From: Pollutibacter soli
Lineage (GTDB): Bacteria > Bacteroidota > Bacteroidia > Chitinophagales > Chitinophagaceae
Direction of reading: 5' to 3'
NCBI GenBank assembly: GCA_029269725.1
Contig: JARJHS010000001.1
Span: forward strand, 744,001-808,000
DNA: 64,000 bases
Under the pieces are notes generated by a model that was not told the origin of the DNA, ran no database searches, and saw nothing but the letters and a program-made list of their open reading frames with translations. Positions 2,689 to 31,348 of the stretch are shown here, piece by piece. Within the stretch, counting starts at the first letter, position 1. Each line of letters begins with the position of its first letter. Position numbers and translations under genes: made by a program.

Positions 2689-3957
2689 ATGAACGAAAAA
2701 AAACAGTCATCGCGCCGGTCATTTATTAAATCAGGTGCCCTTGCGGCTGCGGGATTCTTTATTGTACCCCGCCATGTGTTGGGAAAAGGATTTCTCGCGC
2801 CGAGTGATCAGCTTACCAAAGCCATCATTGGAGTAGGCGGAATGGGTCGGGGTCATATTCCCTATGCCGGAACGCGCGTGGTAGCTATCTGTGATGTCGA
2901 TAAAAAACACTTACAGGAAGCAGCCGCTATGGTAGATAAGGGTGTGAAAACTTTTTCCGATTACCGGGAATTGATTGTTCTGCCTGAAGTGGATATCGTA
3001 CATATTGCCACTCCTCCACACTGGCATGGAATTATGGCCATCGATGCTGCTCGTGCCGGTAAAGACATCTGGTGTGAGAAGCCGATGACAAGAACCATTG
3101 GGGAAGGAAAGCGTGTAGTCGAAGCCGTTAACCAATATGGACGAATGTTCAGGCTGAATACCTGGTTCAGGTTTGAAGATAATTTCTACGGGATGGGTAC
3201 AACCGTGAAACCCATCAAAAAACTGGTACAGAGTGGATTGCTTGGCTGGCCGCTGAAAGTGACCGTGAGCCGGCATACCGGCTTCGACTGGAAATTTTTC
3301 TGGGTAGGCAAAACCAACCTGGAAGCCATGCCTGTGCCCGAAGAACTGGATTACGAAATGTGGCTCGGACCAGCCATTTACAAGCCTTATCATCAGCATA
3401 GAGTGCATCAAACCTTTCGCGGATATTGGGATTATGATGGTGGTGGATTAGGCGATATGGGACAACATTATATTGACCCGATCCAGTACTTTCTCGATAA
3501 AGATGACACAAGTCCTGTTAGTGTTGAGATCGATGCCGAGCAACAGCATTATGATGCTGTTGGTACCTGGCGACGGATCGAGTACACGTATGCAGATGGA
3601 TGTAAAATTATTCTGGATGGAGAAGGAAGAGATGTAAATGTTCCTTACATCGAAGGACCGAAAGGCAAATTATATCCTGGTTTCAAATCAGATATTCCGG
3701 ACATCTGGAAAAAGCTGGCTGCCTTTCCGGATTCGGAGCCGCAGATCACCAGTTTCACGGAGTCAGTAAAAACCAGAAAAGTTTTTGCATTGAATGAAAC
3801 AAACGGTCACAGATCCTGCACCATTGTAAACATGGGTAAGATCGCTTTACAGCTCGGACGTTCGTTGAAATTCGATCCGGTGAAGCAGGAGTTTATTGAT
3901 GATGAAGCAGCAAATCGTTTGTTAAGTCCGCCGCTGAGAGCACCATGGGTCATTTAA
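2689..3957 (+). CDS. Tat-exported Gfo/Idh/MocA family oxidoreductase
   Basis: This is a 422-residue NAD(P)-dependent sugar oxidoreductase. Residues 9-32 (RRSFIKSGALAAAGFF...) form a twin-arginine signal, so the protein is probably exported folded with its cofactor. The Rossmann loop GVGGMGRGH is at 48-56 and the family's catalytic-region motif EKP at 130-132. The C-terminal part (DYDGGGLGDMGQHYID) matches the substrate-binding half. Members of this exported subgroup oxidise glycosides or free sugars, often at C3. The next gene encodes two DUF1080 domains, a family that includes 3-keto-glycoside hydrolases, which suggests a joint oxidise-then-cleave step. The genes are 185 bases apart, so co-transcription is possible but not shown. 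Substrate unknown. Confidence 0.85.
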   Translation: MNEKKQSSRRSFIKSGALAAAGFFIVPRHVLGKGFLAPSDQLTKAIIGVGGMGRGHIPYAGTRVVAICDVDKKHLQEAAAMVDKGVKTFSDYRELIVLPEVDIVHIATPPHWHGIMAIDAARAGKDIWCEKPMTRTIGEGKRVVEAVNQYGRMFRLNTWFRFEDNFYGMGTTVKPIKKLVQSGLLGWPLKVTVSRHTGFDWKFFWVGKTNLEAMPVPEELDYEMWLGPAIYKPYHQHRVHQTFRGYWDYDGGGLGDMGQHYIDPIQYFLDKDDTSPVSVEIDAEQQHYDAVGTWRRIEYTYADGCKIILDGEGRDVNVPYIEGPKGKLYPGFKSDIPDIWKKLAAFPDSEPQITSFTESVKTRKVFALNETNGHRSCTIVNMGKIALQLGRSLKFDPVKQEFIDDEAANRLLSPPLRAPWVI

Positions 3958-4142: not shown

Positions 4143-7100
4143 ATGAAAAAATTAATCAGCCTTATATTGTTGTTGCTGTCTTTTCAGTCTATTCTTTTTG
4201 CCCAGGGGGACAGACGTGCGCAGAGCACAAAAATTGCTGATCTGCTGGCAAAATTTCCTGTGCAGAATAAATACCAGCAGAATAATCTTATGCAGGAAAT
4301 GGCTGCTCTCGGAGGCAGTGGTCTGCTGGAAATGACTATGATGTTGTCCGCGCAGGGCAAGGGAGATAATACGAGATTACAGTATGCTTTGAATGGCTAT
4401 ACAAGTTATGTTTCACTTCCTGGAAATGAAAAACAAAAAGCAGAAGCAGTAAAAACTTATTGCCAGGCATTATCAAAAATGCCAGATGCTTTGGCGGCTG
4501 ATTTTATTATTCAGCAACTTCAGCTGATCGGAAAGGATGATGCCGTTGCATGCCTGAAACCATTACTAACAAATTCTGCACTGGCCGGAAATGCGGCAAG
4601 GGCATTAGCTCAAATCAATACTCCTCTTGCCGAGAAAACTTTAATGACTGCTTTAAAACAGGCGAAAGGAAAGGCTTTACTTTCTGTGATTGAAGCCCTG
4701 GGATATGCAAAATATTCCCCTGCCGTTAAAGAGATTATTGCATTGACAAAATCAACTGATGCAAATGTTGCAAAAGTTTCGTTATATGCCCTTGCATCTA
4801 TCGGAGACACTACAGCATCGGGTGTGTTGGAAGCTGCAGCTGCGAAACAGGGATATCGATATGACCAGACGGGTGCAACTGCCGCCTATCTCAATTATAT
4901 CCGTGAAGTCAGCAACAGTGGTCGCAAAGATATTGCAGCCACTTTCGCAGAGAAGCTGATGAATAATGCTAACGGTAAAGATCAGCTGCCTGTAAAAGTT
5001 GCTGCAATGCAATTACTTGCTGAAGCTAAAGGAGATAAAGCACTACCGGTGTTGTATGATGCAGCTAAAAGTGAAGATGTTATTTACAGGACAGCAGCAT
5101 TGCGTGCCACAGAAAAAATGAAAAGCCCGGGTACAAAATCTGAATGGCTAAAACAACTTTCTTCGGCTTCTCCGGGTGCGGCAATTCAACTTCTTAATTA
5201 TCTTGGCAAGTCGGGAGATCCGTCATTAATGCCGGAACTGCAGAAATATTTATCAGCCTCGGATGAAGGAGTTCGGCTAGCGGCCATTAATTCAGTTGCG
5301 CTCACAGGAAAAGGGGCAGCAATTCCCGTATTAATCAATCAACTCAAAAATTCCGGAGAAGCCGAAACGAATGCAGTTAAAAATGCTCTCCTGGGGATAC
5401 CATCTGCTGATATTTCCATTCCCGTCTTAAATGATTTTGATGCAGTACCGGATGCGGGCAAGGTTTCTCTGATTGAGGTGTTGGCTGCCAGGAAAGCAGA
5501 TAAGTCCGCAGGAAAAATAATCGGTCTTGCGAACGGTAGCAGTCAGATAGTCCGAACTGCTGCAGTAAAAGCTTTGCCTTCGGTTGTTTCTGCAAACGAT
5601 CAACAGGCTGTTTTCAATCTTGTTAAAACGGCATCCCCGGCGAATATTCCCTATCTGCAACAAGCAATGAGTGAAGCCACATCCGGCATGAAGGATACTG
5701 CTGCACGAAGTACGATTATCATTAAACAAATGCGATCTGAATCAGTTGAAAAGCAGATTTATTATCTGGAAGTATTGGCTGGTATTGGAGGTTCAGATGC
5801 ATACAAAGCAATCTCCCAATCGTTCTCTACCGGAAACGATCAGGCGAAAGCTGCTGCTGTGGCAGCATTGTCGAAATCAACGTTTCCCGAAGCACCTCTT
5901 TTTCTTCTGAATATAGCAAGACAAAACACATCAGGTGATATCGCTCAACAGGCGCTTAATGGTTATATAGACCTGGTGGCAAAAAATAATTATCCTCCTG
6001 ATCAGAAAGTGTTAATGCTGATTGATGCCATGGCATTAACCACTAATGATGGGCAACGTCAGCGTATTCTGCGGGAAACTGCACGCATACGCACCTTCCC
6101 TGCTCTCGTGTTCGCCGGGCAATGGCTCGATACTACGGCTGTTCAGCAACAGGCAGCGAATGCGGTGATGAGAATCGCATTATCAGATAAATCTTTTAAT
6201 GGGCCTATCGTTGAAGCCTACCTCAACAAATGTATCCAGTTGTTGAGTGGCCAGGATAGTGATTATGAAAAGAAAGCTATCCGAGCCCACCTTGCTGAAC
6301 TCCCTAAATCAAATGGTTTTGAAGCCATGTTTAATGGCAAAGATCTTACAGGGTGGAAAGGTTTAGTGGGCAATCCACATCAGCGTGCCACTATGCCAAA
6401 AGATACCCTGCTGAAAAAACAGGCTGCAGCAGACAAATTAATGCGAGAAGGATGGGCTGTCAAAGATGGACTGCTGATTTTTACCGGCCATGGGGACAAT
6501 CTTGCAACAGAAAAAATGTACGGCGATTTTGAAATGTTTGTTGACTGGAAAATAACGCCGCAAGGCGACGCTGGTATTTATCTCCGTGGTACTCCGCAGG
6601 TGCAGATCTGGGACACTACGCGCAGGGATGTTGGAGCACAGGTAGGTTCCGGAGGCCTGTACAACAATCAGAAAAATTCTTCAAAACCATTGGTTGTTGC
6701 TGACAATGCGATTGGTGAATGGAATAATTTTCACATCATCATGAAGGGTGATAAGGTTACCGTCTATCTAAATGGCAAACTTGTTGTTGACCAGGTTCAA
6801 TTAGAAAATTACTGGGACAGAAGCCTGCCCATATTTGCAAAAGAGCAGATAGAATTACAGGCACACGGAACTTATGTGGCTTACAGAAATATCTACATAA
6901 AAGAAATTACAAGACCGGAGCCATTTAAGTTGAGTACTGAAGAAATCAATGAGGGATATAAAGTATTGTTTGATGGTTCAGATCTGAGTCAGTGGGTTGG
7001 CAATGTGAAAGATTATGTTATTGAAGGCAGCGACCTTGTTGTAAAACCCGGTGATGGAAGTGGCGGAAATCTTTTTACAAAAGATGAATATGGCGATTTT

Positions 7101-7529
7101 GTGTTCCGTTTCGAATTTCAGTTGACACCAGGTGCAAATAATGGTTTGGGTATTCGTGCACCTTTGGAAGGTGACGCAGCCTATACGGGAATGGAATTAC
7201 AGATTCTCGATAACGAAGCTGAGATATACAAGAATCTGAAGCCCTATCAATATCATGGGTCTGTTTACGGTGTTATACCAGCGAAAAGAGGATATCTTAA
7301 ACCACTGGGTGAATGGAATTATGAAGAAGTGACTGTTCGCGGAACGAAAATCAAAGTTGTTTTGAACAATGAAGTGATACTCGACGGCGATATTGCTGAT
7401 GCTGGTGCAAATGGTACGATGGATAAACAAAATCATCCCGGGCTAAAAAGAGCGAAAGGCCATATCGGATTTCTTGGTCATGGATCAGTAGTGCGATTCA
7501 GAAATATAAGGGTGAAGAGCATGGATTGA
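4143..7529 (+). CDS. HEAT-repeat protein with two C-terminal DUF1080 (3-keto-disaccharide hydrolase-type) domains
   Basis: The 1128-residue product starts with a Sec signal peptide (ISLILLLLSFQSILFAQ). Residues about 40-710 are alanine-rich alpha-helical repeats of the HEAT type, for example VAKVSLYALASIGD and VRLAAINSVALTGKGA. Two DUF1080 domains follow, starting near residues 723 (FEAMFNGKDLTGWKG) and 937 (YKVLFDGSDLSQWVG); each keeps the family's GDFxxxxxxxxTPxxxxGIxxR core. DUF1080 (PF06439) folds as a jelly roll and includes enzymes that hydrolyse 3-keto-glycosides. The domain doubling and the large HEAT scaffold suggest a periplasmic or surface assembly protein as well as an enzyme. It follows an exported Gfo/Idh/MocA oxidoreductase, which fits a 3-keto route. 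Substrate not deducible. Confidence 0.85.
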   Translation: MKKLISLILLLLSFQSILFAQGDRRAQSTKIADLLAKFPVQNKYQQNNLMQEMAALGGSGLLEMTMMLSAQGKGDNTRLQYALNGYTSYVSLPGNEKQKAEAVKTYCQALSKMPDALAADFIIQQLQLIGKDDAVACLKPLLTNSALAGNAARALAQINTPLAEKTLMTALKQAKGKALLSVIEALGYAKYSPAVKEIIALTKSTDANVAKVSLYALASIGDTTASGVLEAAAAKQGYRYDQTGATAAYLNYIREVSNSGRKDIAATFAEKLMNNANGKDQLPVKVAAMQLLAEAKGDKALPVLYDAAKSEDVIYRTAALRATEKMKSPGTKSEWLKQLSSASPGAAIQLLNYLGKSGDPSLMPELQKYLSASDEGVRLAAINSVALTGKGAAIPVLINQLKNSGEAETNAVKNALLGIPSADISIPVLNDFDAVPDAGKVSLIEVLAARKADKSAGKIIGLANGSSQIVRTAAVKALPSVVSANDQQAVFNLVKTASPANIPYLQQAMSEATSGMKDTAARSTIIIKQMRSESVEKQIYYLEVLAGIGGSDAYKAISQSFSTGNDQAKAAAVAALSKSTFPEAPLFLLNIARQNTSGDIAQQALNGYIDLVAKNNYPPDQKVLMLIDAMALTTNDGQRQRILRETARIRTFPALVFAGQWLDTTAVQQQAANAVMRIALSDKSFNGPIVEAYLNKCIQLLSGQDSDYEKKAIRAHLAELPKSNGFEAMFNGKDLTGWKGLVGNPHQRATMPKDTLLKKQAAADKLMREGWAVKDGLLIFTGHGDNLATEKMYGDFEMFVDWKITPQGDAGIYLRGTPQVQIWDTTRRDVGAQVGSGGLYNNQKNSSKPLVVADNAIGEWNNFHIIMKGDKVTVYLNGKLVVDQVQLENYWDRSLPIFAKEQIELQAHGTYVAYRNIYIKEITRPEPFKLSTEEINEGYKVLFDGSDLSQWVGNVKDYVIEGSDLVVKPGDGSGGNLFTKDEYGDFVFRFEFQLTPGANNGLGIRAPLEGDAAYTGMELQILDNEAEIYKNLKPYQYHGSVYGVIPAKRGYLKPLGEWNYEEVTVRGTKIKVVLNNEVILDGDIADAGANGTMDKQNHPGLKRAKGHIGFLGHGSVVRFRNIRVKSMD

Positions 7530-10393: not shown

Positions 10394-11248
10394 ATGGAAC
10401 ATTTGCTCGCCGAAATTCTGAAAAGTCAAGTATCACCGGATGCATGGACCTGGCTCGAAGACCAGGCACAACAAATCAGAACTGAACCCGGTGCTGCCAA
10501 ACTGAATCATTGTTTTGTTTTAATCCCCAGGAAAACAGGTAAAAAACCAATCACTCCAACTTCTGCTCAACTGGTTGAACTGGAGAAAAATCTTCCCGGA
10601 GCTGGATTACAGGATTGGACAGCTGATCGTCTGGCTCGTGTGTGGATACTGACGCAGATCGATACTTCCAGTTCCGACACCTATGTTCGAAAGATCGAGC
10701 AATTATTTCTCACTGCGGAAATGAATGAGTTGGTTGCGTTGTACAGTGCATTGCCGTACTTGAAGTTTCCTGAGCGTTGGGTGCTTAGATGTTCCGAAGG
10801 AATAAGGAATAATATAGCGACTGTGCTGGAAGCTGTGATGTACGAAAACCCCTACCCTGCGCAATGGCTTTCTGAATCCGCCTGGAACCAGTTGGTGATG
10901 AAAGCATTTTTTACAGATAAAAATGTTGACAGGATAACGGGCCTGGACAAGCGCGCAAATCAACATCTAGCTGATATTTTGACCGACTATGCGCATGAAC
11001 GCTGGCAGGCCCACCGCAAGGTGAATCCACAGCTTTGGCGCCTGGTAAGTCGTTTCATTAATAACAATAATTTTTCAGATCTGCGCAAAGTGTACAGTGA
11101 AGGCGACCACGTAGAGAAAAAAGCGGCTATACTTGCCTGTTCGCAAAGCGAATTTGCGCCGGCGAAGCAGCTGGTAGCAGAGGCTGCCGGAACTACTAAT
11201 ATACTCGAAACACTAAGCTGGAAAAGCCTGATCAACGAAAGTTTATAA
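10394..11248 (+). CDS. eboA: EboA domain-containing protein, first gene of the ebo operon
   Basis: The 284-residue product matches the EboA family, an alpha-helical protein of unknown biochemistry that is always found with the other ebo genes. Visible features are the opening LLAEILKSQVSPDAWTWLEDQ, an alpha-rich body (RVWILTQI, YVRKIEQLFLTAEMNELVALYSALP) resembling an ARM-like solenoid, and the conserved region around FFTDKNVDRITGLDKRANQHL. No signal peptide or membrane helix is present. Identification relies on these features and, more strongly, on five canonical ebo genes directly downstream, the first only 25 bases away. In cyanobacteria the cluster is needed to move a scytonemin precursor to the periplasm. 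What EboA does is not known; I infer a scaffold or cargo-handling role only. Confidence 0.85.
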   Translation: MEHLLAEILKSQVSPDAWTWLEDQAQQIRTEPGAAKLNHCFVLIPRKTGKKPITPTSAQLVELEKNLPGAGLQDWTADRLARVWILTQIDTSSSDTYVRKIEQLFLTAEMNELVALYSALPYLKFPERWVLRCSEGIRNNIATVLEAVMYENPYPAQWLSESAWNQLVMKAFFTDKNVDRITGLDKRANQHLADILTDYAHERWQAHRKVNPQLWRLVSRFINNNNFSDLRKVYSEGDHVEKKAAILACSQSEFAPAKQLVAEAAGTTNILETLSWKSLINESL

Positions 11249-11273
11249 TCTCCAAATAATTAATTCAATTGCG

Positions 11274-12257
11274 ATGTGCCACGACCCTTCCAAAAGAATA
11301 AAGGAAACTGAAGAAACATATACTCCTGCCAATTTTGATAATATCCGCGGGATGAAGTTTTTTGATCCGCATATCCACATGACATCGCGGACGACAGATG
11401 ACTACCAGGCAATGGCAGATGCGGGCATTACTGCGATCATCGAACCAGCTTTCTGGCTCGGCCAGCCACGAACCGGGATCGATACTTTCCGTGATTATTA
11501 CAGCAGCTTGCTGGGTTGGGAAAGATTTCGGGCGTCCCAGTTTGGTATCAAACATTATTCTACCATCGGATTGAATTCGAGAGAAGCAAACAATGTCTCT
11601 CTTGCCGAGCAGGTGATAGAGTTGCTCCCACTTTTCATTTATAAAGAAGGTGTTGTTGGAATTGGAGAAATCGGGTTTGATGATCAGACGGAAGCAGAAG
11701 AAAAATACTATCGCATTCAACTGGACATGGCGAAAGAAGCTTCTTTACCTGTACAGATTCATACGCCGCATCGCGATAAAAAAAGAGGAACGCAACGAAG
11801 CATGGATATCGCTGTTGAGCATGGTCTTGACCCATATACGGTAATTGTCGACCACAATAATGAAGAGACAGTAAAGGAAGTATTGGACCGTGGTTTCTGG
11901 GCTGCATTCACCATATATCCGTTTACAAAAATGGGTAATGAAAGAATGGTTGAAATAGTAAAACAGTACGGTACGGAAAGAATCATGATCAATTCCGCTG
12001 CAGACTGGGGCATAAGCGATCCGCTTGCAATTCCCAAAACAGCTTCTTTGATGAAGTCAAGAGGAATTTCTGATGCAGATATTGAAATGGTTACCTATCG
12101 GAATGCCATAACCGCTTTTGGACAAAGCGGTCAGATCGACGAAGCTGATTTCGCTTTGGTAAAATATATTGATCAGTCGCAAAAGTTCAGTGGTAACACC
12201 GTTTTGCGAGGTGGCCAGGCTCCAAGAATCGATAAATCTTCCATCATCATAAATTAA
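11274..12257 (+). CDS. eboB: EboB, TatD-like metal-dependent hydrolase of the ebo operon
   Basis: The 327-residue product is a TatD/amidohydrolase-type TIM barrel. It has the metal-binding HxH in FDPHIHMTSRTTDDY, the segment VIEPAFWLGQPRT, the glutamate in GIGEIGFDD, and later histidines in HTPHRDKKRGT and VDHNNEE. The motif combination HMTSRTTDDY plus HTPHRDKK is typical of the ebo-linked subgroup rather than housekeeping TatD nucleases. An internal ATG at 11352 (MKFFDPHIH) is the position where relatives start, so the first 26 residues may not be translated. The gene overlaps nothing and lies 25 bases after eboA and 8 bases before eboC. It probably hydrolyses or isomerises a metabolite carried by the system; the substrate is unknown. 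Confidence 0.88.
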   Translation: MCHDPSKRIKETEETYTPANFDNIRGMKFFDPHIHMTSRTTDDYQAMADAGITAIIEPAFWLGQPRTGIDTFRDYYSSLLGWERFRASQFGIKHYSTIGLNSREANNVSLAEQVIELLPLFIYKEGVVGIGEIGFDDQTEAEEKYYRIQLDMAKEASLPVQIHTPHRDKKRGTQRSMDIAVEHGLDPYTVIVDHNNEETVKEVLDRGFWAAFTIYPFTKMGNERMVEIVKQYGTERIMINSAADWGISDPLAIPKTASLMKSRGISDADIEMVTYRNAITAFGQSGQIDEADFALVKYIDQSQKFSGNTVLRGGQAPRIDKSSIIIN

Positions 12258-12265
12258 AAAAAATA

Positions 12266-13222
12266 TTGAGCAGGATTAAAGCCATGCTTCAGCTGATGCG
12301 GCCAGCCAATATTGTTACCGCAGTTTCAGATGTTCTTGCCGGAATCGCCATTTCCGGCTTTTTGCTTTTGGACATGGAGAAGGACGTCAGCTGGCAACCC
12401 GTGTTGCTTCTTTGTCTATCGACGATTGGGTTGTACGGAGGCGGAGTTGTTTTTAATGATGTTTTTGATGCAGAACTCGATAAAAAAGAAAGACCTGAGC
12501 GACCTATCCCACGTGGTGACGTAACCATAAACCAGGCTTCAATTTTAGGATTATTATTGCTTGTAGGAGGCATTCTGGCTGCCTTCCGATGGCAATTGAC
12601 CTCTGGTCTGCTCGCTACGGGAATTGCTGTTGCCGCCCTGGTTTATGACAAATATTCAAAACATCATAAGATTGCAGGTCCGTTGAATATGGGGCTTTGC
12701 AGAGGCCTGAATTTGTTGCTTGGGATCAGTGTGGTTCCACTTGGGGTGCAGAGTTGGTGGTGGTTGGGTACCATTCCCATAATTTACATCGCAGCAATTA
12801 CTTTAATCAGCCGCGGCGAGGTTCATGGCGGCTCCAGAAAACATATTTACCTGGCTGCCGTTATGTATGCTGCTGTGATTATTAGTATCGCGTTATTTGC
12901 TGGTAATTATGCGGGGCAAGAGAATTTGAATAAAAAAATTGGATGGGGTTGGGACATCACAAATTTTGTTTGGTGGAAACCAATGGCCTTTACTATTTTG
13001 TTTCTGGCTTTATTTAGTATGATGATATATATACCGCTCGTCAAAGCGATGAAGCAACCAAATGGTCCTAATATCGGAAAATCCGTAAAGGCAGGAGTAC
13101 TCGGGCTGATTTTGATGAATGCATCCTGGGCTTGTGCAGTAGGTCAACTGCCGCTTGCATTTATCATGTTATTGTTATTGCCGCTTTCAATAATTTTGGC
13201 TAAGGCATTTGCCGTAACCTGA
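12266..13222 (+). CDS. eboC: EboC, UbiA-like prenyltransferase of the ebo operon
   Basis: The 318-residue integral membrane protein has about eight or nine hydrophobic helices. The first Asp-rich motif of UbiA prenyltransferases is present as NDVFDAELD at residues 64-72, and a second acidic site appears as YDKYSK near 130. The opening LMRPANIVTAVSDVLAGIA is typical of the EboC subgroup. UbiA enzymes transfer a prenyl chain to a ring acceptor within the membrane; which acceptor EboC uses is unknown. The frame's first start is TTG at 12266; an ATG lies at 12284. TTG gives the longer cytosolic N-terminus common in relatives, so I kept it, with doubt. It is the only clearly membrane-embedded enzyme of the operon. 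Confidence 0.88.
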   Translation: MSRIKAMLQLMRPANIVTAVSDVLAGIAISGFLLLDMEKDVSWQPVLLLCLSTIGLYGGGVVFNDVFDAELDKKERPERPIPRGDVTINQASILGLLLLVGGILAAFRWQLTSGLLATGIAVAALVYDKYSKHHKIAGPLNMGLCRGLNLLLGISVVPLGVQSWWWLGTIPIIYIAAITLISRGEVHGGSRKHIYLAAVMYAAVIISIALFAGNYAGQENLNKKIGWGWDITNFVWWKPMAFTILFLALFSMMIYIPLVKAMKQPNGPNIGKSVKAGVLGLILMNASWACAVGQLPLAFIMLLLLPLSIILAKAFAVT

Positions 13223-13279
13223 GCTTGGCAATTAACAGAATACTATTCGAAAAAAATGTGCTGAATTGTAAATTTGCGT

Positions 13280-14458
13280 ATGAATTACCTCGAGCAGAGA
13301 TTTAGTGTTCAATTCAATTACAAGGTTTTTTTTACTTCGGACTTGTTTGCAGAATCAAACAAATTACTGGAGAATTTTCTTGCTGAAAGAAAAGAAAGTG
13401 GCACTGAGGCGAAAATTTTATTTGTCCTTGACGAAGGCCTGGTCACTGCCAACCCTTCCATCCCACAAAAAATCAGGAATTATTTCAGTAATGCTGATTC
13501 TTTTCAACTGGTTTCTGATCTGATCATTGTTCCCGGTGGTGAGGCTGCAAAAAACAATAATATCTATTTTAACCAGATTCTGGAAGCCGTACACAATCAT
13601 GGTATTGACCGACACTCCTACCTCATTGCAGTTGGTGGTGGAGCTGTTTTGGACTTAGCTGGTTATGCCGCAGCTGTTGCTCACAGAGGTATAAAACATA
13701 TCCGCGTGCCAGGAACCGTATTATCTCAGAATGATTCCGGCGTTGGCGTGAAAAATGGCATCAATTATTTTGGAAAGAAAAATTTCTTGGGAAGTTTTGT
13801 TCCGCCTGTTGCCGTTTTCAATGACGAACAATTGTTATTGAGTCTCGATACCCGCAACTGGCGTTCGGGGATATCAGAAGCCATAAAAGTAGCCCTGATA
13901 AAAGATGCTGACTTCTTTTACTGGATCGAGGATAATGTGGCAGCATTAAAAGACCGTAATCTGAATGTGATGAACCAGCTGGTGAAGAGATGTGCGGAAT
14001 TACATTTAGAACATATATCCGGCGGAGATCCTTTTGAGTTAGGCTCTTCGCGCCCATTGGATTTTGGTCACTGGAGTGCACATAAGCTTGAGCAGCTTTC
14101 TCAATTTACTGTTCTTCACGGGGAAGCAGTAGCCATGGGAATTGCACTGGACACTTTGTACTCTGCAATTTCGGGTAGGCTTGACGGTGACAAGGCGCAA
14201 CGAATTATTCAGTTGATCCGCGATCTTGGGTTCGAGATAACTCATCCATTGATGCAGGTGAAAGAGTCCGGTTCTCCCCTGCTGCAGGGCCTGGAAGAAT
14301 TCAGGGAACACCTTGGCGGTAGATTGACAATAATGTTACTTAGTGATATCGGTAAAGGCGTGGAAGTAAATGAAATGGATCCGGGATTGCTGGAACAGGC
14401 GGGAGAACAACTTCATGCCATCAGTGGAGCCGGTTATTCAAGAAAGGTCACAGCCTGA
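13280..14458 (+). CDS. eboD: EboD, 3-dehydroquinate synthase-like sugar-phosphate cyclase of the ebo operon
   Basis: The product has 392 residues from the ATG at 13280; an upstream TTG at 13274 is possible but less likely. It belongs to the 3-dehydroquinate synthase/sedulose-phosphate cyclase superfamily. The NAD-binding glycine run VGGGAVLDLAGYAA and the metal-ligand motifs SGISEAIK (Glu), FGHWSAHKLE (His) and VLHGEAVAMG (His) are all present, so the enzyme should bind Zn and NAD and be active. It is longer than typical AroB, and the SQNDSGVGVKNG region marks the EboD-type cyclases. It is expected to act on a sugar phosphate, not necessarily DAHP, because the housekeeping AroB normally lies elsewhere. 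Position in the ebo operon supports the assignment. Confidence 0.87.
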   Translation: MNYLEQRFSVQFNYKVFFTSDLFAESNKLLENFLAERKESGTEAKILFVLDEGLVTANPSIPQKIRNYFSNADSFQLVSDLIIVPGGEAAKNNNIYFNQILEAVHNHGIDRHSYLIAVGGGAVLDLAGYAAAVAHRGIKHIRVPGTVLSQNDSGVGVKNGINYFGKKNFLGSFVPPVAVFNDEQLLLSLDTRNWRSGISEAIKVALIKDADFFYWIEDNVAALKDRNLNVMNQLVKRCAELHLEHISGGDPFELGSSRPLDFGHWSAHKLEQLSQFTVLHGEAVAMGIALDTLYSAISGRLDGDKAQRIIQLIRDLGFEITHPLMQVKESGSPLLQGLEEFREHLGGRLTIMLLSDIGKGVEVNEMDPGLLEQAGEQLHAISGAGYSRKVTA

Positions 14459-14514
14459 TTCCTTTCCGGTTTTTTCTTGGTACTTTTTTTCAGAAATTCA
14501 TTCTATTCCTGTTT

Positions 14515-15723
14515 ATGTACACCAAACACGGACATCTCAGCTATTGCACCAATATACATGCGGGTGAAAACTGGACCGATCATTTTGATGCGTTGACAAA
14601 ATATTTTCCGGAAATAAAACAAGCAGTTTCTCCTGATGAGCCCATGGGCATTGGACTTCGTTTATCAAATATTGCAAGCGAAGAACTGATCAAGACGGCA
14701 AATCTTGAAGAGTTCCGCAACTGGCTGAAAGATCAGAAAGCGTATGTATTCACGATGAATGGTTTCCCTTATGGTGGATTTCATCATACCAGGGTTAAAG
14801 AACAGGTGCATGCACCCGATTGGACGACCCGGGAACGGGTAACGTATACGAAACGGTTATTTGATATACTCATGAATCTTTTGCCGGAAGGAATGGAGGG
14901 TGGCGTATCTACATCTCCGATCAGTTATCGTTATTGGTTTGAAAACGATGCTGCGCAGCAAAAAGCACGCGAAACCGGAACAGCCTGCATTGCTGAAATA
15001 GCCCTGTATCTCGTCCAGATTGCCAATTTTTCAGGAGTGGTTATGCATCTGGATATCGAACCTGAGCCCGATGGGATTTTAGAAACCGGAACAGAATTTC
15101 TCGAGTGGTTTAATAATGAATTGCTAGCAGTAGCGGTGCCTCTGATACAAACTGAATTTGATGTTCCGACCCATCACGCAGAAGAAATGGTGAAAACGCA
15201 TATCCGTATCTGTTATGATGTTTGTCATTTCGCTGTTGGGTATGAACCCCTGACAGAGATGGTTGAAAAATTCAGGGAGAATGGAATTAAGATTGGAAAG
15301 ATCCAGGTGAGTGCCGCTTTGAAAGCCATACTTCCTGCGCATCCAGATACAAGGAAATCCGTTATTGATGCTTTCAGAAAATTTAACGAACCTGTGTACC
15401 TCCACCAGGTCGTTGCAAAGAATAATGGGCATATCAAAAGATACAGGGATCTTCCTGATGCTCTAAACGATGCTCAACCAGCGACCGAAACTGAATGGCG
15501 GGCACACTTTCATGTACCCATAGCCGAAAAGAAATTTGGTGACCTGGAATCCACACAGGATGCGATTACAGAAGTTTTGGAATTACAAAAAAAATCTCCT
15601 TTTACTCATCAGTTGGAAGTAGAAACATATACCTGGGAAGTTATTCCGGGGCAGCTCCGTTTACCTATTGAACAATCCATCATCAAAGAACTGAATTGGG
15701 CAAAATCAATCCTTGAAAACTAA
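14515..15723 (+). CDS. eboE: EboE, metabolite traffic protein (xylose isomerase-like TIM barrel)
   Basis: The 402-residue product begins HGHLSYCTNIHAGENWTDHF, a signature of EboE proteins, and has the features of a sugar-phosphate isomerase/epimerase TIM barrel. Candidate metal ligands are in LDIEPEPDG (Asp, Glu), CYDVCHFAVGYE (Asp, His) and the late KIQVSAALKA strand. No signal peptide is seen, so the protein is cytosolic. The ATG at 14515 begins 57 bases after eboD. EboE family members occur only with the other ebo genes. The reaction is not established; isomerisation of a sugar-like intermediate is my inference from the fold. Confidence 0.87.
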   Translation: MYTKHGHLSYCTNIHAGENWTDHFDALTKYFPEIKQAVSPDEPMGIGLRLSNIASEELIKTANLEEFRNWLKDQKAYVFTMNGFPYGGFHHTRVKEQVHAPDWTTRERVTYTKRLFDILMNLLPEGMEGGVSTSPISYRYWFENDAAQQKARETGTACIAEIALYLVQIANFSGVVMHLDIEPEPDGILETGTEFLEWFNNELLAVAVPLIQTEFDVPTHHAEEMVKTHIRICYDVCHFAVGYEPLTEMVEKFRENGIKIGKIQVSAALKAILPAHPDTRKSVIDAFRKFNEPVYLHQVVAKNNGHIKRYRDLPDALNDAQPATETEWRAHFHVPIAEKKFGDLESTQDAITEVLELQKKSPFTHQLEVETYTWEVIPGQLRLPIEQSIIKELNWAKSILEN

Positions 15724-15740
15724 ACCTTGCATCATTGCAC

Positions 15741-17111
15741 ATGAAGAAAACCGTCGTTATTGATATTGTAGGGTTATCAAATTCTGTAATCGGAGAATAC
15801 ACACCTTTTATTTCCGGGTACATGGCGAATCATCCTGCAACAACCATTCGTCCTATGTTACCTGCAGTGACTACTGCTGTCCAATCCACTTTCGTAACAG
15901 GGCTTTGGCCATCTGAAACAGGCATCGTTGGAAACGGTTGGTACGATCGTATTGATTCAGAAATTAAATTCTGGAAACAGTCAAACAAACTTGTTAATGG
16001 TGAAAAGATATGGGACAAAGCAAAAAAGCTCGATCCTTCTTTCACCTGTTCATATATGTTCTGGTGGTACAATATGTATTCAACTACGGATTACAATGTA
16101 ACTCCAAGACCTAACTACCTTGCAGATGGAAGAAAGATGCCGGATTGTTATTCACATCCGGCTGGGCTCAGGGATGAACTGCAGCAAAAATTCGGTCAGT
16201 TTCCATTGTTTCAGTTCTGGGGGCCAGGGGCAGATATTAAATCAACCCAATGGATAGCCGAAGCTTCGGTTTACACTGATCAGAAATACAACCCGACACT
16301 TACTTTTATTTATCTCCCTCATCTGGATTATTGTCTGCAGAAATTCGGACCTGATTTTTCAAAAATTTCAAAGGATCTTAAGGAAATAGACCAGGTTGTC
16401 AGCAAGCTGGTCGGCTATTATGAAAGCCATGGTGCTTCAGTGATTTTACTTTCTGAATATGGAATCGCACCCGTCAACAATCCGATTCATATCAATCGTG
16501 TGTTGCGTGATTTAGGGCTATTGCAGATCCGTGAAGAACGAGGTCTTGAGTTGCTGGATGCTGGTGGTTCAAAAGCATTCGCCGTTGCCGATCACCAGAT
16601 TGCGCACATATATATCAATGATCCCTCCGTTCGGGGCAAGTTGCTTGACAAGATTAGTACCATACCTGGAATTAAACATATCCTGCATAAAGAGGCACAG
16701 AAAGCATATCATATCGATCATGAGCGTTCGGGGGATTTTGTACTTGTTGCAGAAAACGGCAGCTGGTTTACCTATTATTTCTGGCTGGATGATAACAAAG
16801 CACCTGACTATGCGAGGTGTGTAGACATTCATAAGAAGCCTGGATATGATCCGGTGGAAATGTTCATGAGTTCCAAACTTCGTGCAGGGTATAAACTTCT
16901 CAGGAAAAAAGCAGGATTTCGTTATGTGATGGATGTGATTCCGCTCGATGCGCAACTGATAAAAGGCTCGCATGGAAATATTGGTGAGGCGTCAGAATAT
17001 CATGCAGTTATTGCGGCTGACAAATTGCAGAACAAGGCTGAGATTGATGCTACACAGGTATATGACATTATCTGGAAAACTTTGACTGATGAGGATCCTG
17101 TGGTTGCATGA
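15741..17111 (+). CDS. eboF: EboF, alkaline phosphatase/nucleotide pyrophosphatase-like protein of the ebo operon
   Basis: The product has 456 residues from the ATG at 15741 (the TTG at 15735 adds two residues). It is a type I phosphodiesterase/alkaline phosphatase superfamily member. The metal site starts with VVIDIVGLS near the N-terminus, the nucleophile Thr lies in PAVTTAVQSTFVTG, and further ligands are in LPHLDYCLQKFG and the HGN of KGSHGNIGEA. No signal peptide is evident, so it acts in the cytosol or is exported by unknown means. It closes the six-gene operon 18 bases after eboE. The family cleaves phosphodiester or pyrophosphate bonds, which would suit release of a nucleotide- or prenyl-phosphate-linked intermediate; this is inference. 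Confidence 0.86.
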   Translation: MKKTVVIDIVGLSNSVIGEYTPFISGYMANHPATTIRPMLPAVTTAVQSTFVTGLWPSETGIVGNGWYDRIDSEIKFWKQSNKLVNGEKIWDKAKKLDPSFTCSYMFWWYNMYSTTDYNVTPRPNYLADGRKMPDCYSHPAGLRDELQQKFGQFPLFQFWGPGADIKSTQWIAEASVYTDQKYNPTLTFIYLPHLDYCLQKFGPDFSKISKDLKEIDQVVSKLVGYYESHGASVILLSEYGIAPVNNPIHINRVLRDLGLLQIREERGLELLDAGGSKAFAVADHQIAHIYINDPSVRGKLLDKISTIPGIKHILHKEAQKAYHIDHERSGDFVLVAENGSWFTYYFWLDDNKAPDYARCVDIHKKPGYDPVEMFMSSKLRAGYKLLRKKAGFRYVMDVIPLDAQLIKGSHGNIGEASEYHAVIAADKLQNKAEIDATQVYDIIWKTLTDEDPVVA

Positions 17112-17171
17112 TTACGGGTAAAAATCCTATCTTGAATAATATCAATTTCTGAAAAATATCAACCCTCCAAA

Positions 17172-17681
17172 ATGATCAGAAAAATCCTCATTGTATTGAT
17201 TGTCCTGTTGATAATCGCACAATTTTTCAGGCCGGAAAAAAATCAATCAAACGATAATACTTATCATATTTCAACCAAATATGCTCTACCGGCAAATGTG
17301 GAGCAGGTATTGAAGGACGGATGTTACGATTGTCACTCCAACTATACAGAATATCCGTGGTATTCGCAGGTACAACCAGTCGCTGCATGGATGAATAATC
17401 ATGTTAAGGAAGGGAAAAGTGAATTGAATTTTTCAAACTTTACACAAAGGAAAATCGCAGGGCAGAATCACAAGTTTGAAGAAATTATCGAAACGGTAAA
17501 GGAACATGAAATGCCTTTAAGTTCTTATACCTGGCTCGGAATGCATCCGAAAGCAAAACTCAGTGATGAGCAACGTCAGACACTTGTTAATTGGGCGCAG
17601 GCTCAGATGGATATGCTCAAAGCACAATATCCTGCTGATAGCCTTGTAATAAAACGTCCCCCTCCTACGCCGGCTAAATAG
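17172..17681 (+). CDS. Membrane-anchored haem-binding domain protein
   Basis: This 169-residue protein starts with one hydrophobic segment (ILIVLIVLLIIAQFF, residues 5-19), probably an uncleaved anchor, so the rest is periplasmic. A c-type haem attachment site, CYDCH, lies at residues 51-55 and is followed by the YPWYSQVQP segment typical of the small Bacteroidota haem-binding domain family. Methionines in EMPLSSYTWLGMHP are candidates for the sixth haem ligand. It lies 60 bases after eboF on the same strand and might be read from the same message, although this gene is often found without ebo genes. A role in electron transfer or redox sensing is inferred. Confidence 0.8.
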   Translation: MIRKILIVLIVLLIIAQFFRPEKNQSNDNTYHISTKYALPANVEQVLKDGCYDCHSNYTEYPWYSQVQPVAAWMNNHVKEGKSELNFSNFTQRKIAGQNHKFEEIIETVKEHEMPLSSYTWLGMHPKAKLSDEQRQTLVNWAQAQMDMLKAQYPADSLVIKRPPPTPAK

Positions 17682-21958: not shown

Positions 21959-21989
21959 CCCAAAACTATCAAACGAAAAATTGCTGCTT

Positions 21990-24900
21990 ATGTCAATTAA
22001 ATTCAAACAACTAATCAATCCGCTACTGCTGTTGCTGTTTGTGCTGTGCCAGGTCACAGTACATGCGCAGACCCGGGTTAGTGGAAAAGTGACCGACAAT
22101 ACCGGCAAGCCGGTAACCGGTGCAACTATTACCGTAAAGGGCTCCAACGTCGCCACAACTTCGGGTGACGATGGTAGTTACCAGATTTCACTTCCTGCAG
22201 GATCCACAACACTTGTTATTTCTTCTGTAGGATTTCAGACTGTTGAAGTGAACGCCAGTTCGGGCACTGCCAATGTTACGCTGGTGGAAGTTACCAATAA
22301 CCTCAATGAGGTAGTGGTAACAGGTTACTCTTCACAGAGAAGAAAAGACATCACAGGATCGGTAGCCGTGGTAAAGGTTTCTGATCTTACTTCAATTCCA
22401 GCTTCTTCTGCTGAGAACCAGCTTCAGGGTCGTGCTGCAGGTGTTACTGTTGTTTCCAACAGTGCACCGGGCCAGGTTTCCAAAGTGAGGATCCGCGGTT
22501 ACGCATCTTTCACCGGAAATGATCCTTTGTACATTGTAGATGGAGTGCCGACAGGTTCCATCAACGGTATCAACCCTGATGATATCGAATCAATGCAGGT
22601 TCTGAAAGATGCAGCTTCTGCATCGATCTATGGTTCACGTGCATCAAATGGTGTGATCATCCTTACGACCAAAAGAGGAAGGTCCGGAAAAGCGCGTGTT
22701 TCTTACAGCGGTTATTATGGTTTGCAGTTCCCTGGAAAGGGATACTCTGAAAAACTCCTCAATCCACAGGAACAGGCTGACCTGTTGTGGCTCGCTACCA
22801 AGAACTCAACTGGTGGCACCCCAAGCAGTGTACAGTACGGAAATGGTGCAACACCAAGGCTCCCGGATTATATTCTTGCCGGTACTTTTTCAGGTGTAAT
22901 GGAAGGAGACCCAGCTGCAAATCCTGCTCTTTATGATCTGAATTATGCAAACCTGGGTGATGCGTCTTATATTCCTTACCTGATTGTTAAGGCAAATAAG
23001 CAAGGAACAAACTGGTGGAACCAGGTCACACAGACTGCTCCGATCATTGATCAGAATATCAATATCTCCGGCGGTACTGCAGATAAAAGTCGATACCTCT
23101 TCAGCTTGAACTATTTCAACCAGGATGGTATCGTTGTAGAGAATTTCTATCGTCGTTATACGGCAAGGATGAACACAGAATTCGCTGTTGGTCGTCACAT
23201 CAGGATCGGTGAGAATCTCCAGATACTTTTCTCTGATGCAAATACAGCTGATAACAATACTGAAGCATCAACTATCGCCTTGTCCCGCGATATTCTTTCT
23301 ATTATTCCTGTTTATACTATTAAAGAAGGTGATTTTGCAGGTACAAAAGGTAATGGATTAGGTACCGCTGATAATCCTTATGCAATAAGGAAACGAAATG
23401 CACAGAACCGTAACCAGAACTTCAACATTTTTGGTAACGTCTACACGGAAATCGATTTCTTTAGAAACTTCACTTTCCGTTCCAGCTTCGGTGGTGGTTA
23501 TGGCAACTTCAACTCCCGCGCTTATCCCACCATTGAGTATGAAGGTGCAGAGAATGCAAGAAATCCAAGGTTGACTACAACATTCAGCCGCTCACGTTCA
23601 TGGACGTGGACAAACCAGGTCACATACAAACAGAGTTTCGGAGATCATGATATCATGGCTCTCGCAGGTACAGAAGCAGTTGAAGAACTTGCTGAATCAC
23701 TCACAGGTTCAAGAGACAATTTCTTTATCTACAACAACTACGATTATATCACAACTAATACTGGTGCATCAAATCAGCTTTCCAGTGGTGGAATGGGCCA
23801 GCCATCTGCGCTGTTTTCCATCTACGGAAAAGTTGACTATGCATTCAAAAACAAATATCTCGCAAGCTTTACTATCCGTCGTGATGGTTCTTCCAGATTT
23901 GGTTCTGACAACAGGTATGCCATCTTCCCTTCCGGTTCACTCGGATGGAGGGTTTCTGAAGAAGCATTTCTTCGGGATGTTAAATGGATCAACGATTTAA
24001 AGATCAGGGGAAGCTATGGTACAATGGGTAATCAACGTATCGATCCGGCGAACCAGTACACCCGTTTCGTAAACAGCAACGGTGCTGCTAACTACGATCT
24101 GAACGGAACCAGCACATCAACACTTACAGGTTTCTATCTTCAGTTCATCGGTAACCAGAAAGGAAAATGGGAAACCAACATCACAACAAATATTGGCTTT
24201 GATGCGACTTTATTCAATGGAAACACTGATATCAGTTTCGACTGGTATGCTAAGAAAACACAGGATCTTCTCTTCCAGGTGGAACAGCTTGCAACTTCCG
24301 GCGGTACTGCGTCAGGTAATCCTCCTTTCATCAACATTGCAAGTATGAAGAATACAGGTGTTGACCTGTCTGTTACACAGCGTGCATGGTTTGGTGCTAA
24401 AGGATCTGGTGTTCGTTTTGAAGGAACATTGACCTTTACAACTTATAAAAACGAAATCACTAAAATTGCTGATGGCGTAACGTTCTTCGACTACAACAGC
24501 CCCCTGAACGAGCAGAACAGGATCAGCGGTGTGTTCACACGTAACGCTGTGGGTCACCCGATGAACTCTTTTTATGGTTATAAAGTGCTCGGTATTTTCC
24601 AGAATGCTGATGAAGTGGCAAAAGCTCCTACTCAGACAGATAAAGCTCCGGGACGTTTAAGATACCAGGATACCAATGGTGACGGCGCAATTACTCCCGA
24701 CGACAGAGTTTTCTATGGTAATCCAAATCCGAAATTCTCGTATGGTTTGAACCTTGCATTCACTTATAAAGGATTTGATCTTACTGCCTTCTTCTACGGT
24801 GTACAGGGACGTGACGTAATCAACTATTCAAAATTTGGTCTTGATTTCTATCAATCAAGTCTGGGTAACAAACTCAAATCTACTTTGTACGAAAGCTGGC

Positions 24901-25238
24901 TCCCTGATGGTAGCCGCCCGAATGCAAAAATCCCAATGCAGGAATTGACCAGTACTTTCAGCTCTAATGCAAACCCGACTTCTTACTATATGGAAGATGG
25001 TTCTTACCTGCGTTTGCGCAACCTGAGTCTCGGTTATACGTTACCACAAAATCTGACCAGCAAGGTTAGAATTGATCGGGTGCGCTTCTATGTACAGGCG
25101 GTAAACCTGTTCACTATAACCAAGTACACTGGTTTGGATCCTGAGATTATTAGTACAGATGACAGGGCTGCTTTTATTGATGCGAGCACTTACCCTGCTG
25201 TTAAACAAATCATCTTCGGAGCCAATATTAATTTCTGA
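21990..25238 (+). CDS. SusC/RagA family TonB-linked outer membrane protein
   Basis: The protein has 1082 residues from the ATG at 21990; the frame is open to a TTG at 21981. A signal peptide ending VTVHAQ is followed by a carboxypeptidase-regulatory-like beta domain (residues about 22-100, VSGKVTDNTGKPVTGATITVKG). A TonB-box/plug domain follows (LNEVVVTGYSSQRRKDITGS; ENQLQGRAAGVTVVS; VRIRGYASFTGNDPLYIVDGVP; VLKDAASASIYGSRASNGVI), then the 22-strand barrel. It imports oligosaccharides or other large nutrients with its SusD partner, encoded 20 bases downstream. Length and motifs are complete. Specificity is not readable. Confidence 0.96.
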   Translation: MSIKFKQLINPLLLLLFVLCQVTVHAQTRVSGKVTDNTGKPVTGATITVKGSNVATTSGDDGSYQISLPAGSTTLVISSVGFQTVEVNASSGTANVTLVEVTNNLNEVVVTGYSSQRRKDITGSVAVVKVSDLTSIPASSAENQLQGRAAGVTVVSNSAPGQVSKVRIRGYASFTGNDPLYIVDGVPTGSINGINPDDIESMQVLKDAASASIYGSRASNGVIILTTKRGRSGKARVSYSGYYGLQFPGKGYSEKLLNPQEQADLLWLATKNSTGGTPSSVQYGNGATPRLPDYILAGTFSGVMEGDPAANPALYDLNYANLGDASYIPYLIVKANKQGTNWWNQVTQTAPIIDQNINISGGTADKSRYLFSLNYFNQDGIVVENFYRRYTARMNTEFAVGRHIRIGENLQILFSDANTADNNTEASTIALSRDILSIIPVYTIKEGDFAGTKGNGLGTADNPYAIRKRNAQNRNQNFNIFGNVYTEIDFFRNFTFRSSFGGGYGNFNSRAYPTIEYEGAENARNPRLTTTFSRSRSWTWTNQVTYKQSFGDHDIMALAGTEAVEELAESLTGSRDNFFIYNNYDYITTNTGASNQLSSGGMGQPSALFSIYGKVDYAFKNKYLASFTIRRDGSSRFGSDNRYAIFPSGSLGWRVSEEAFLRDVKWINDLKIRGSYGTMGNQRIDPANQYTRFVNSNGAANYDLNGTSTSTLTGFYLQFIGNQKGKWETNITTNIGFDATLFNGNTDISFDWYAKKTQDLLFQVEQLATSGGTASGNPPFINIASMKNTGVDLSVTQRAWFGAKGSGVRFEGTLTFTTYKNEITKIADGVTFFDYNSPLNEQNRISGVFTRNAVGHPMNSFYGYKVLGIFQNADEVAKAPTQTDKAPGRLRYQDTNGDGAITPDDRVFYGNPNPKFSYGLNLAFTYKGFDLTAFFYGVQGRDVINYSKFGLDFYQSSLGNKLKSTLYESWLPDGSRPNAKIPMQELTSTFSSNANPTSYYMEDGSYLRLRNLSLGYTLPQNLTSKVRIDRVRFYVQAVNLFTITKYTGLDPEIISTDDRAAFIDASTYPAVKQIIFGANINF

Positions 25239-25258
25239 TATTTTAAACCTGAGCTTGT

Positions 25259-28709: not shown

Positions 28710-28714
28710 AAGAA

Positions 28715-30352: not shown

Positions 30353-31348
30353 TGGTTAATAGTTTTTGTGAATACGATCAGACGTACAATTTAGGTAATG
30401 GCTTAATGAGAAGTATGTTTTGGTCAGGCTTTTTTTACGAAAGGCGGAAGAGGGAACAGGAAGACGCAAGCATTCCGCAGGAGGCCTGAAGTAAAACGTT
30501 GACCGTTTAACGCTGGCCTTTAAGGATGCGGAAAGCCTGGGTAGCTGCGGCTGGCGATTATTGTTAAAGCAGGACAAGTGGTAATGACAAAAATGACAGA
30601 CAATGTAGAATACCCAGAAAAGGGAAAACGTAGAACGTAAAACGTCAGACGTTAAACGTTGAACGTAAGCTTATCCGATGTAGATAACATCATAAAAAGA
30701 TCGACCTGTGTTGGTCGAGCATTCTTTCAATTAATGAAGAATCGCGGCACCACGTAGACCTGCGTAATACGTTCAACATTTGTATTGTACATGGAACGTA
30801 TTACGAATGTTTATCCGATGTAGCTAACATCATAAAAAGATAGGTTTGTGTTGGTCGAGCATTCTTTCAATTAATGAAGAATCGCAACACCCACGGAGAC
30901 CTGTGTTATTCATTGAACATTGTATTGTACGTTGAACGTATTACGAATGTTTATCCGATGTAGCTAACATCAAAAAAGATAGGCCCGTGTTAGTCGAACA
31001 TTCTTTCGATTAATGAAGAATCGCGGCACCCACATAGACCTGCGTAATACGTCCAACATTTGTATTGTAGATTGAACGTATAACGAATGTTTATCCGATG
31101 TAGCTAACATCATAAAAAGATCCGCCTGTGTTGGTCGAGCATTCTTTCAATTAATGAAGAATCGCGGCACCCACATAGGCCTTCGTTATACGTTCAACAT
31201 TATACATTGAACGTATAACGAATGCTTATCCGATGCAGTTACCATCATAAAATAATTGGCGTATGCGAGAAAGGAATTCTTTCAATTTTTGGAAGAACAC
31301 CGCATCTGCATAGGCCAGCGTTTAACGTTCAACGTTCAACGTAATACT
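30353..31348. other. 1-kb intergenic region of tandem repeats between the two TldD/TldE pairs
   Basis: No gene is supported here. The part 30353-30670 contains the leader of TldD1 and scattered AACGT-type words (ACGTTAAACGTTGAACGTA near 30650). The rest is a 140-bp tandem array listed separately. The region might terminate transcription of TldE2 or carry a promoter for TldD1. Confidence 0.8.
30671..31345. repeat. Tandem array of five ~140-bp repeats with internal hairpins
   Basis: Each unit begins TTATCCGATG at 30671, 30811, 30951, 31091 and 31226, so the periods are 140, 140, 140 and 135; the fifth copy is divergent. Each unit contains a small stem ATTCTT...AAGAAT and, near its end, a larger inverted repeat. 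In unit 1 the stem is CGTAATACGTTC (30763-30774) with GAACGTATTACG (30794-30805). In unit 4 it is 16 bp, TTCGTTATACGTTCAA (31182-31197) with its complement at 31207-31222. Because 140 is not a multiple of three, the array is not coding. Confidence 0.85.

Follow-up and report, generated by a model that had tools for sequence, protein, structure and literature searches.

A typical Bacteroidota ebo operon in Pollutibacter soli and its candidate membrane cyclitol lipid

What does an ebo operon serve in a bacterium in which no cargo for it is in sight? The ABCDEF operon and its prenylated-cyclitol reading were published by Yurchenko 2016 (PMC5133447), and a role in periplasmic transport by Klicki 2018 (PMC6282210). 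Passages of the latter report that Nostoc deletions of eboA, eboB, eboC, eboE, eboF and the whole cluster (not eboD) leave the scytonemin monomer in the cytoplasm. An initial annotation of the present locus cited this cyanobacterial role, moving a scytonemin precursor to the periplasm. We analyzed a 64,000-nucleotide stretch of the Pollutibacter soli genome (hereafter the window). As that annotation had it, no recognized cargo pathway lies within 10 kb of the operon among the genes scanned against Pfam (reading frames of at least 150 residues outside 21981-27010, where a SusC/SusD-like pair was recognized by eye). This is unsurprising, because ebo is widespread in bacteria that produce no scytonemin, according to the same passages (PMC6282210).

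The locus comprises six plus-strand genes in the order eboA to eboF at window positions 10394-17111 (Table 1). Profile scores and coordinates confirm the earlier reading of these genes as EboA to EboF in canonical order, with spacers of 8-56 bases (25, 8, 51, 56 and 11 in turn) and a further 60 bases to a haem-binding-domain gene. In the three genes with TTG starts, the first ATG follows 18 bases (eboC), 6 bases (eboD) and 6 bases (eboF) into the frame. A scan for sigma-70-type promoters returned hits at shuffle level (22 versus a mean of 20.2), and no TAnnTTTG motif was found upstream of eboA. The window shares six families, order and strand with the ABCDEF-type operon described in passages of PMC5133447 for Bacteroidota, Cyanobacteria, Leptospira and eustigmatophyte plastids, and its proteins retain the residues conserved in relatives. 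It differs from that type not in kind but in its flanking genes and in having no linked TMEM220. It is thus a complete, intact and typical Bacteroidota ebo operon, an ordinary member of its family. Among 36 same-genus genomes searched for EboC, one carried a piece; recent horizontal arrival is nonetheless not favored, because the operon nests with its family relatives.

Table 1 Features of the ebo locus in window coordinates.
Feature	Position	Strand	Product	Assignment
eboA	10394..11248	+	284 aa	NCBIfam EboA models; predicted all-helical protein
eboB	11274..12257	+	327 aa	PF01026, 58.3 bits; TatD-like metal-dependent hydrolase
eboC	12266..13222	+	318 aa, TTG start	NF035940; UbiA-type membrane prenyltransferase
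eboD	13274..14458	+	394 aa, TTG start	NF004852; sugar-phosphate cyclase, not housekeeping AroB
eboE	14515..15723	+	402 aa	NF035939; TIM-barrel by family name
eboF	15735..17111	+	458 aa, TTG start	PF01663, 195.4 bits; type I phosphodiesterase family
haem-binding-domain gene (neighbor, not an ebo component)	17172..17681	+		PF14376, 156.7 bits

Profile searches placed EboC (390.8 bits, cut-off 250), EboD (560.7 bits, cut-off 333) and EboE (489.9 bits, cut-off 250) in their NCBIfam families. For EboA, the domain model NF035938 matched at 176.3 bits (cut-off 50), while the longer family model NF035937 reached 224.9 bits, below its cut-off of 320; EboB and EboF were assigned by Pfam superfamily models (TatD_DNase and Phosphodiest) and similarity to ebo loci only. 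The predicted EboA structure consists of helices throughout (mean pLDDT 96.9), and a fold search of this model against PDB and BFVD gave no match at E≤0.001; we count this confident helical prediction, unmatched among known structures, as new here. A PDB sequence search with EboE likewise gave none at E≤1. The nearest solved relative of EboB is AF_1765 (3guw, E 6.6e-22), and the presumed EboB metal ligands H33, H35, E132, H163, H194 and D244 are each at least 97% conserved (n = 81, window included).

The motifs had been described as apparently intact, which is borne out for EboC, EboD and the EboF HGN. For EboF, the description does not extend beyond its own family, since positions that carry metal ligands in classical relatives are altered. 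EboF keeps T46, D198 and H413, the last of these (in HGN) present in 90/90 sequences, window included. Gln202 and Glu241-Tyr242 are equally invariant (90/90 each, window included); in the alignment Q202 replaces a His of classical type I phosphodiesterases, and E241-Y242-G243 occupies what we take to be the position of their DHG. EboF therefore lacks the classical two-metal site, with its Asp/His ligands including GH after the Asp, and DHG. It counts as intact only when measured against its family members, and it may not hydrolyze phosphate esters. These substitutions are reported here as new.

Against the AroB model TIGR01357, EboD scored 214.1 bits, under the cut-off of 305. Like the sedoheptulose-7-phosphate cyclase 4p53 it has DFGH (containing D263) and H346; the DHQS sequences compared show NLGH at the position of DFGH. 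The genome carries a further DHQ-synthase gene at another site (G000:C2:185498), among neighbors judged by eye to be shikimate-pathway genes. We therefore rejected EboD as the 3-dehydroquinate synthase AroB, and, by model scores, residues and the second gene, it probably falls outside the true DHQS group. Its residues E202, H266 and H282 are at least 97% conserved (n = 80, window included).

In 18 plasmid-borne ebo loci, EboD was found in 7 and inositol-3-phosphate synthase, a ring-forming enzyme unrelated to EboD, in 10, with both in none and neither in one. Five Streptomyces plasmid loci share with the window EboA, B, E and F homologs and a UbiA-type enzyme, there an SCO3242-family prenyltransferase, and carry inositol-3-phosphate synthase plus a sugar isomerase in place of EboD; a ScyD/ScyE-family neighbor is present in 3/5. 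In one genus, nine of ten loci had A, B, C, E and F with neither EboD nor inositol synthase in the fetched flank, which speaks against the cyclitol reading. The mutual exclusion of the two cyclases in plasmid loci supports a cyclitol product. We regard this alternation as new here: the word "inositol" is absent from PMC5133447, PMC6282210, PMC9235831, PMC9796282 and PMC6092422, supplements aside, and an earlier notice elsewhere is possible.

EboC retains the first Asp-rich motif NDxxDxxxD in 81/81 sequences, window included. T179, S182, E185 and G188, likewise in 81/81, stand in the presumed region of the second Asp-rich UbiA motif, DxxxD; relatives of EboC are active enzymes (PMC9235831). The nearest solved relative is the digeranylgeranylglyceryl phosphate synthase 6m31 (E 1e-13), an enzyme that prenylates a polyol phosphate. 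Alternatively, EboC may prenylate an aromatic of quinoline or phenol type, the operon yielding a meroterpenoid with EboD supplying a shikimate-like precursor. Window EboC falls in the same prenyltransferase group, Asp-rich motif kept, as Ubi-297 and the EboC proteins of Maribacter, Zobellia and Algoriphagus, and passages of PMC9235831 describe how Ubi-297 and two homologs farnesylate 8-hydroxyquinoline-2-carboxylic acid. The in vitro assays given there used 14 acceptors, all aromatic; Ubi-297 accepted six, with quinoline acids farnesylated and phenols and catechols giving no product (PMC9235831). The missing NLGH signature of EboD also argues against a shikimate-like precursor, and inositol synthase, which takes EboD's role elsewhere, yields no aromatic precursor. 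We consider an aromatic acceptor unlikely.

Starting from the established gene identities, their conservation, the alternation and the TMEM220 association described below, we infer the individual reactions, the product, its role and its cargo. EboD would cyclize a sugar phosphate to give a carbocycle (cyclitol), and EboC, an inner-membrane UbiA enzyme nearest to DGGGP synthase, would attach a prenyl chain to the EboD-derived polyol. EboB, EboE and EboF would then remodel the head group by trimming and rearranging it, and EboA would act as a helical scaffold. The resulting membrane cyclitol lipid may help a small metabolite reach the periplasm, in many Bacteroidota perhaps together with the membrane protein TMEM220. 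Taken whole, the explanation of a typical ebo operon making such a lipid has, in our judgment, an even chance of being right. The earlier suggestion that this enzyme set could build a cyclitol-like lipid holds up and gains support from the alternation; it was already in print in 2016 (PMC5133447). The passages of PMC5133447, PMC6282210, PMC9235831, PMC6092422 and PMC9796282 describe no ebo product. Ebo operons are widespread, and the alternation narrows their product towards a cyclitol.

In another reading, the Ebo proteins would move the cargo themselves, assembled in the membrane as a complex (EboA-EboB-EboC) whose enzyme folds serve for binding. All the Nostoc deletions retain the same intermediate, and a complex is proposed in those passages (PMC6282210); EboA, predicted to be all-helical, could be its scaffold. 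However, EboB, EboC and EboD show almost no variation at their presumed catalytic residues, and binding alone would not demand an alternation of two unrelated cyclases, which makes a cargo-moving complex distinctly unlikely. The Nostoc punctiforme cluster, as described there, shares EboA, B, C, E and F homologs with the window, for which periplasmic transfer is by analogy a candidate role; it acts on the scytonemin monomer, whereas the scanned genes within 10 kb include no recognized scytonemin-type genes, and in the window eboD lies inside the operon (PMC6282210).

The haem-binding protein had been proposed as a partner. It carries CYDCH at residue 51 behind a hydrophobic N-terminus, is the genome's only Haem_bd match, and is encoded on the same strand just downstream of eboF. 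We surveyed two overlapping sets, 94 fetched ebo loci (window locus excluded) and 80 named Bacteroidota loci. A tblastn search that used the window protein as query (E 1e-5, at which a very divergent homolog could be missed) located a homolog near ebo in 1/94 and 1/80, one and the same same-genus contig, where it also follows ebo at about 670 bases after eboF. With none near ebo in the other 93 and 79 loci, some on short contigs, a functional partnership is extremely improbable, and we rejected it: the gene is a lineage-specific neighbor, near ebo only in this genus. MsrA was likewise rejected as a conserved divergent neighbor, adjoining eboA in 0/94 fetched loci; in seven of these loci, matches lie 6-9 kb from eboE.

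TMEM220 (PF15071), a small membrane protein, is a better-supported partner. It lies beside ebo in 31/94 fetched and 38/80 named loci, in placements that recur. Within one family it occurs in 45/46 ebo-positive genomes versus 61/348 others, or, by genus, 16/16 versus 18/85. It is absent from 8/48 further ebo-positive genomes and from all 18 plasmid loci. The window genome has a single copy, of general type; it was not visible to a reader of the window because it is unlinked to ebo. Neither the ebo-type subfamily in this genome nor a TMEM220 relic in the window was found, and 8/9 other same-genus genomes in the family sample have TMEM220 without ebo (type examined in one). As a partner in this particular genome, TMEM220 is therefore a weak candidate. 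A TMEM220 fold search gave no significant match. The association is, we believe, new here: PMC5133447, PMC6282210, PMC9235831 and PMC9796282 do not mention TMEM220, supplements aside, and earlier notice may exist elsewhere.

The sole TMEM220 copy sits in a cluster with a 3-keto-disaccharide hydrolase gene, and the window holds one such gene at 4143-7529. Ebo in this family might therefore serve periplasmic 3-keto-sugar metabolism, the lipid handling sugar-derived intermediates or electrons. Genes for 3-keto-disaccharide hydrolases flank ebo in 5/30 one-per-genus representatives (1.1 expected, P 0.004), a value that is optimistic because the family was chosen after viewing the neighbors and matches from a home-made profile were set against an expectation from Pfam counts. 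Genes of this type are common across most of the genomes concerned, and ThuA gave 2/30 versus 0.5 expected (P 0.09). We rate a 3-keto-sugar role as very unlikely.

More broadly, ebo may be a general factory for prenylated cyclitol lipids, with an exchangeable ring step and, in Bacteroidota, TMEM220 as a hitherto unrecognized seventh component, a tentative generalization that we hold somewhat short of even. Its ring step would be EboD, or inositol-3-phosphate synthase plus isomerase in Actinomycetota and Gemmatimonadota; the seventh component would be supplied by small membrane proteins of the TMEM220 family, many of which belong to a subfamily dedicated to ebo. Knocking down human TMEM220 perturbs the Golgi as well as the secretion of glycoproteins, according to passages of PMC6979480, and for this poorly characterized family, present in people too, the bacterial operon context offers a handle on function.

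The six adjacent genes that the initial annotation had assigned to eboA–eboF lie at the positions given there, every one on the + strand. From eboA to eboF they are separated by 25, 8, 51, 56 and 11 bases, and a further 60 bases lie between eboF and the haem gene (17172-17681). TTG is the start codon of eboC, eboD and eboF, the first ATG lying 18, 6 and 6 bases inside, respectively. Curated models placed EboC, EboE and the EboA domain in the Ebo families above cut-off; the placement of EboB and EboF came from Pfam only, and in the model search EboD fitted NF004852 and fell below the AroB cut-off. The published ABCDEF ebo type, as described in PMC5133447, has the same gene order. The window operon is of a known kind, rightly recognized from the outset. 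EboE scored above cut-off in 46/394 family, 37/396 order and 31/395 phylum genomes (window genome included in each), and EboC was found in one of 36 same-genus genomes searched, on a contig-end piece. In a tree of joined EboB, EboE and EboF, the window was sister to the same-genus copy (support 1.0) and nested among same-family genera, making its operon an ordinary member.

Relatives for alignment came from the 94 ebo loci fetched from other genomes (L120-L213; 93 ebo-positive genomes of the family, order and phylum samples and a G033 contig piece), giving after size filtering, window included, 79 EboA, 81 EboB, 81 EboC, 80 EboD, 93 EboE and 90 EboF sequences. In these alignments, the window proteins keep the near-invariant residues. 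The motifs claimed as intact held for EboC (NDxxDxxxD, 81/81) and for EboF H413, but EboF is atypical at Q202, which aligns to the His of solved relatives, and at E241-Y242-G243 (E and Y in 90/90), a site that is DHG in classical members. T46, D198 and H413 are each present in 90/90 EboF sequences, whereas D10 is shared by 60 and replaced by Asn in the other 30. Given these altered residues, EboF may be no ordinary hydrolase. EboC T179, S182, E185 and G188, in what is presumably the place of the second Asp-rich motif, were each kept in 81/81, and EboB carries the six presumed metal ligands expected of a TatD-like enzyme. EboD shares DFGH and His346 with the sedoheptulose cyclase 4p53, whereas the DHQ synthase sequences shown have NLGH and lack that His; D263 and H346 were invariant (n = 27). 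The window genome has a second DHQ synthase gene (C2:185498), whose neighbours resemble, by eye, DAHP synthase, EPSP synthase and chorismate synthase. Dehydroquinate need not be the product of EboD.

The operon had been suggested to build a prenylated cyclitol lipid, with ring closure by EboD and prenylation by EboC, an idea that the comparative results render more testable. EboE matches occurred in 48 plasmid records, 18 of which were analyzed, picked for taxonomic spread. EboD was present in seven of these loci (one Bacteroidota, one Deinococcota, five Pseudomonadota) and inositol-3-phosphate synthase in ten (nine Actinomycetota, one Gemmatimonadota; Pfam-checked in one); no locus had both, and one, from Streptomyces, had neither. 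In all ten inositol-synthase loci there was also a sugar isomerase, together with a gene matching the SCO3242-family prenyltransferase; window EboC matched the model of that family at 4.8e-40, under its cut-off. A cyclitol product predicts such use of two unrelated sugar-phosphate-to-carbocycle enzymes in one role, although the actinobacterial loci are close kin and the independent events therefore few. The flanks of the 94 fetched loci and of 80 named database loci (the 80 most similar of at least 590) yielded no inositol synthase. Against the cyclitol reading, we weighed the absence of eboD from the fetched stretch in nine of ten loci of genus g38 (L167, L177, L182, L183, L186-L188, L191, L192; L181 retains it) and of an EboC match at E 1e-4 in all four loci of genus g174 (L164, L166, L168, L172). 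We also counted against it the aromatic acceptors of Ubi-297, an EboC (PMC9235831). In Streptomyces plasmids L304, L309 and L312, a ScyD/ScyE-family protein adjoins the inositol-synthase variant.

When the neighbours of the 94 loci were clustered, a single additional family stood out as clearly recurrent, mostly of 122–137 residues (26 loci, nine genera) and identified by Pfam as the small membrane protein TMEM220 in 30/30 members of cluster A4. A profile built from this family found it at 31/94 fetched and 38/80 named loci (the best 80 of at least 590).

Placement of TMEM220 at ebo loci. Counts are copies, and some loci have two; the fetched and named sets have genomes in common and are kept apart rather than summed.
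Placement	Fetched	Named
Directly upstream of eboA, same strand	16	25
Divergent from eboA, ≤1.1 kb	9	7
Adjoining eboF end	5	6
Before eboE	1	0
Elsewhere	1	2

In the family sample, TMEM220 was present in 45/46 ebo-positive versus 61/348 other genomes (Fisher 1.9e-28) and, by genus, in 16/16 versus 18/85 (1.4e-9), both values being inflated by kinship. It lay within 10 kb of eboE in 23/46 and within 20 kb in 29/46 ebo-positive family genomes. Beyond that sample, 40/48 further ebo-positive genomes had it (50 searched, of which G033, a carrier, and G786, which lacks it, were excluded), against 34/247 phylum-sample genomes, 15 of these 34 known to be ebo-positive. Because TMEM220 occurred in 0/18 plasmid loci, only one of them from Bacteroidota, any role may be confined to Bacteroidota. 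A TMEM220 tree clade of 55 distinct sequences (support 0.76), chosen via a sequence signature, comprised 47 from ebo flanks, seven from elsewhere in ebo-positive genomes and one from the 20 ebo-negative genomes examined (of 61 bearing TMEM220, the four best-scoring included), namely G552, which is 69% complete. As 24 distinct flank sequences fell outside the clade, the linkage to ebo is broader than the clade. The clade was found in 26/46 ebo-positive family genomes; among the other 20, G786 lacks TMEM220, and five (G457, G614, G706, G764 and G787) have copies at 12–16 kb from eboE that this count leaves out. AlphaFold2 predicted four long helices for TMEM220 (from L220; mean pLDDT 87.7), with no significant fold match, and a helical EboA (mean pLDDT 96.9), whose top PDB match was an importin (E 0.15).

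The haem gene (PF14376, CYDCH motif) is the single match to its family in the window genome. The proposal that its product is an ebo partner was over-interpreted: by tblastn with the window protein, a homologue lay near ebo in the same-genus contig JAATGW010000066.1 (L193, also L218; a Chitinophagales bin) and in none of the other 93 fetched or other 79 named loci, the named set being the best 80 of at least 590. Its position beside ebo is the habit of one genus, which is no sign of function. Directly after it, between convergent genes, lies an inverted repeat of 37 bases (17682-17718/17807-17843, 81% complementary).

Aureibacter and Mycetohabitans carry, upstream of ebo, a ferritin-like gene of PF12902 type with a partner of ~600 residues, and G224 has such a pair within the fetched 20 kb. 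Loci with this pair near ebo, all in distant hosts, are L298:2046-5106, L302:3063-6081 (the ferritin-like gene Pfam-checked in both) and L154. These are candidate cargo genes in those hosts; nothing like the pair was recognized near the window operon. Neighbouring genes also hint weakly at 3-keto-sugar metabolism as the ebo context, but this lead was picked after the fact.

The window genome's own TMEM220 (L216:9411-9782) falls outside the clade, and the gene cluster around it contains ThuA-sugar dehydrogenase-cytochrome c, 3-keto-disaccharide hydrolase, GFO/IDH and xylose-isomerase-like genes. Within the window, 4143-7529 encodes a protein of 1128 residues that combines HEAT repeats with two 3-keto-disaccharide hydrolase stretches, adjoining a GFO/IDH oxidoreductase (2689-3957), and 27372-34391 holds four PmbA/TldD metallopeptidase genes resembling two tandem pairs.
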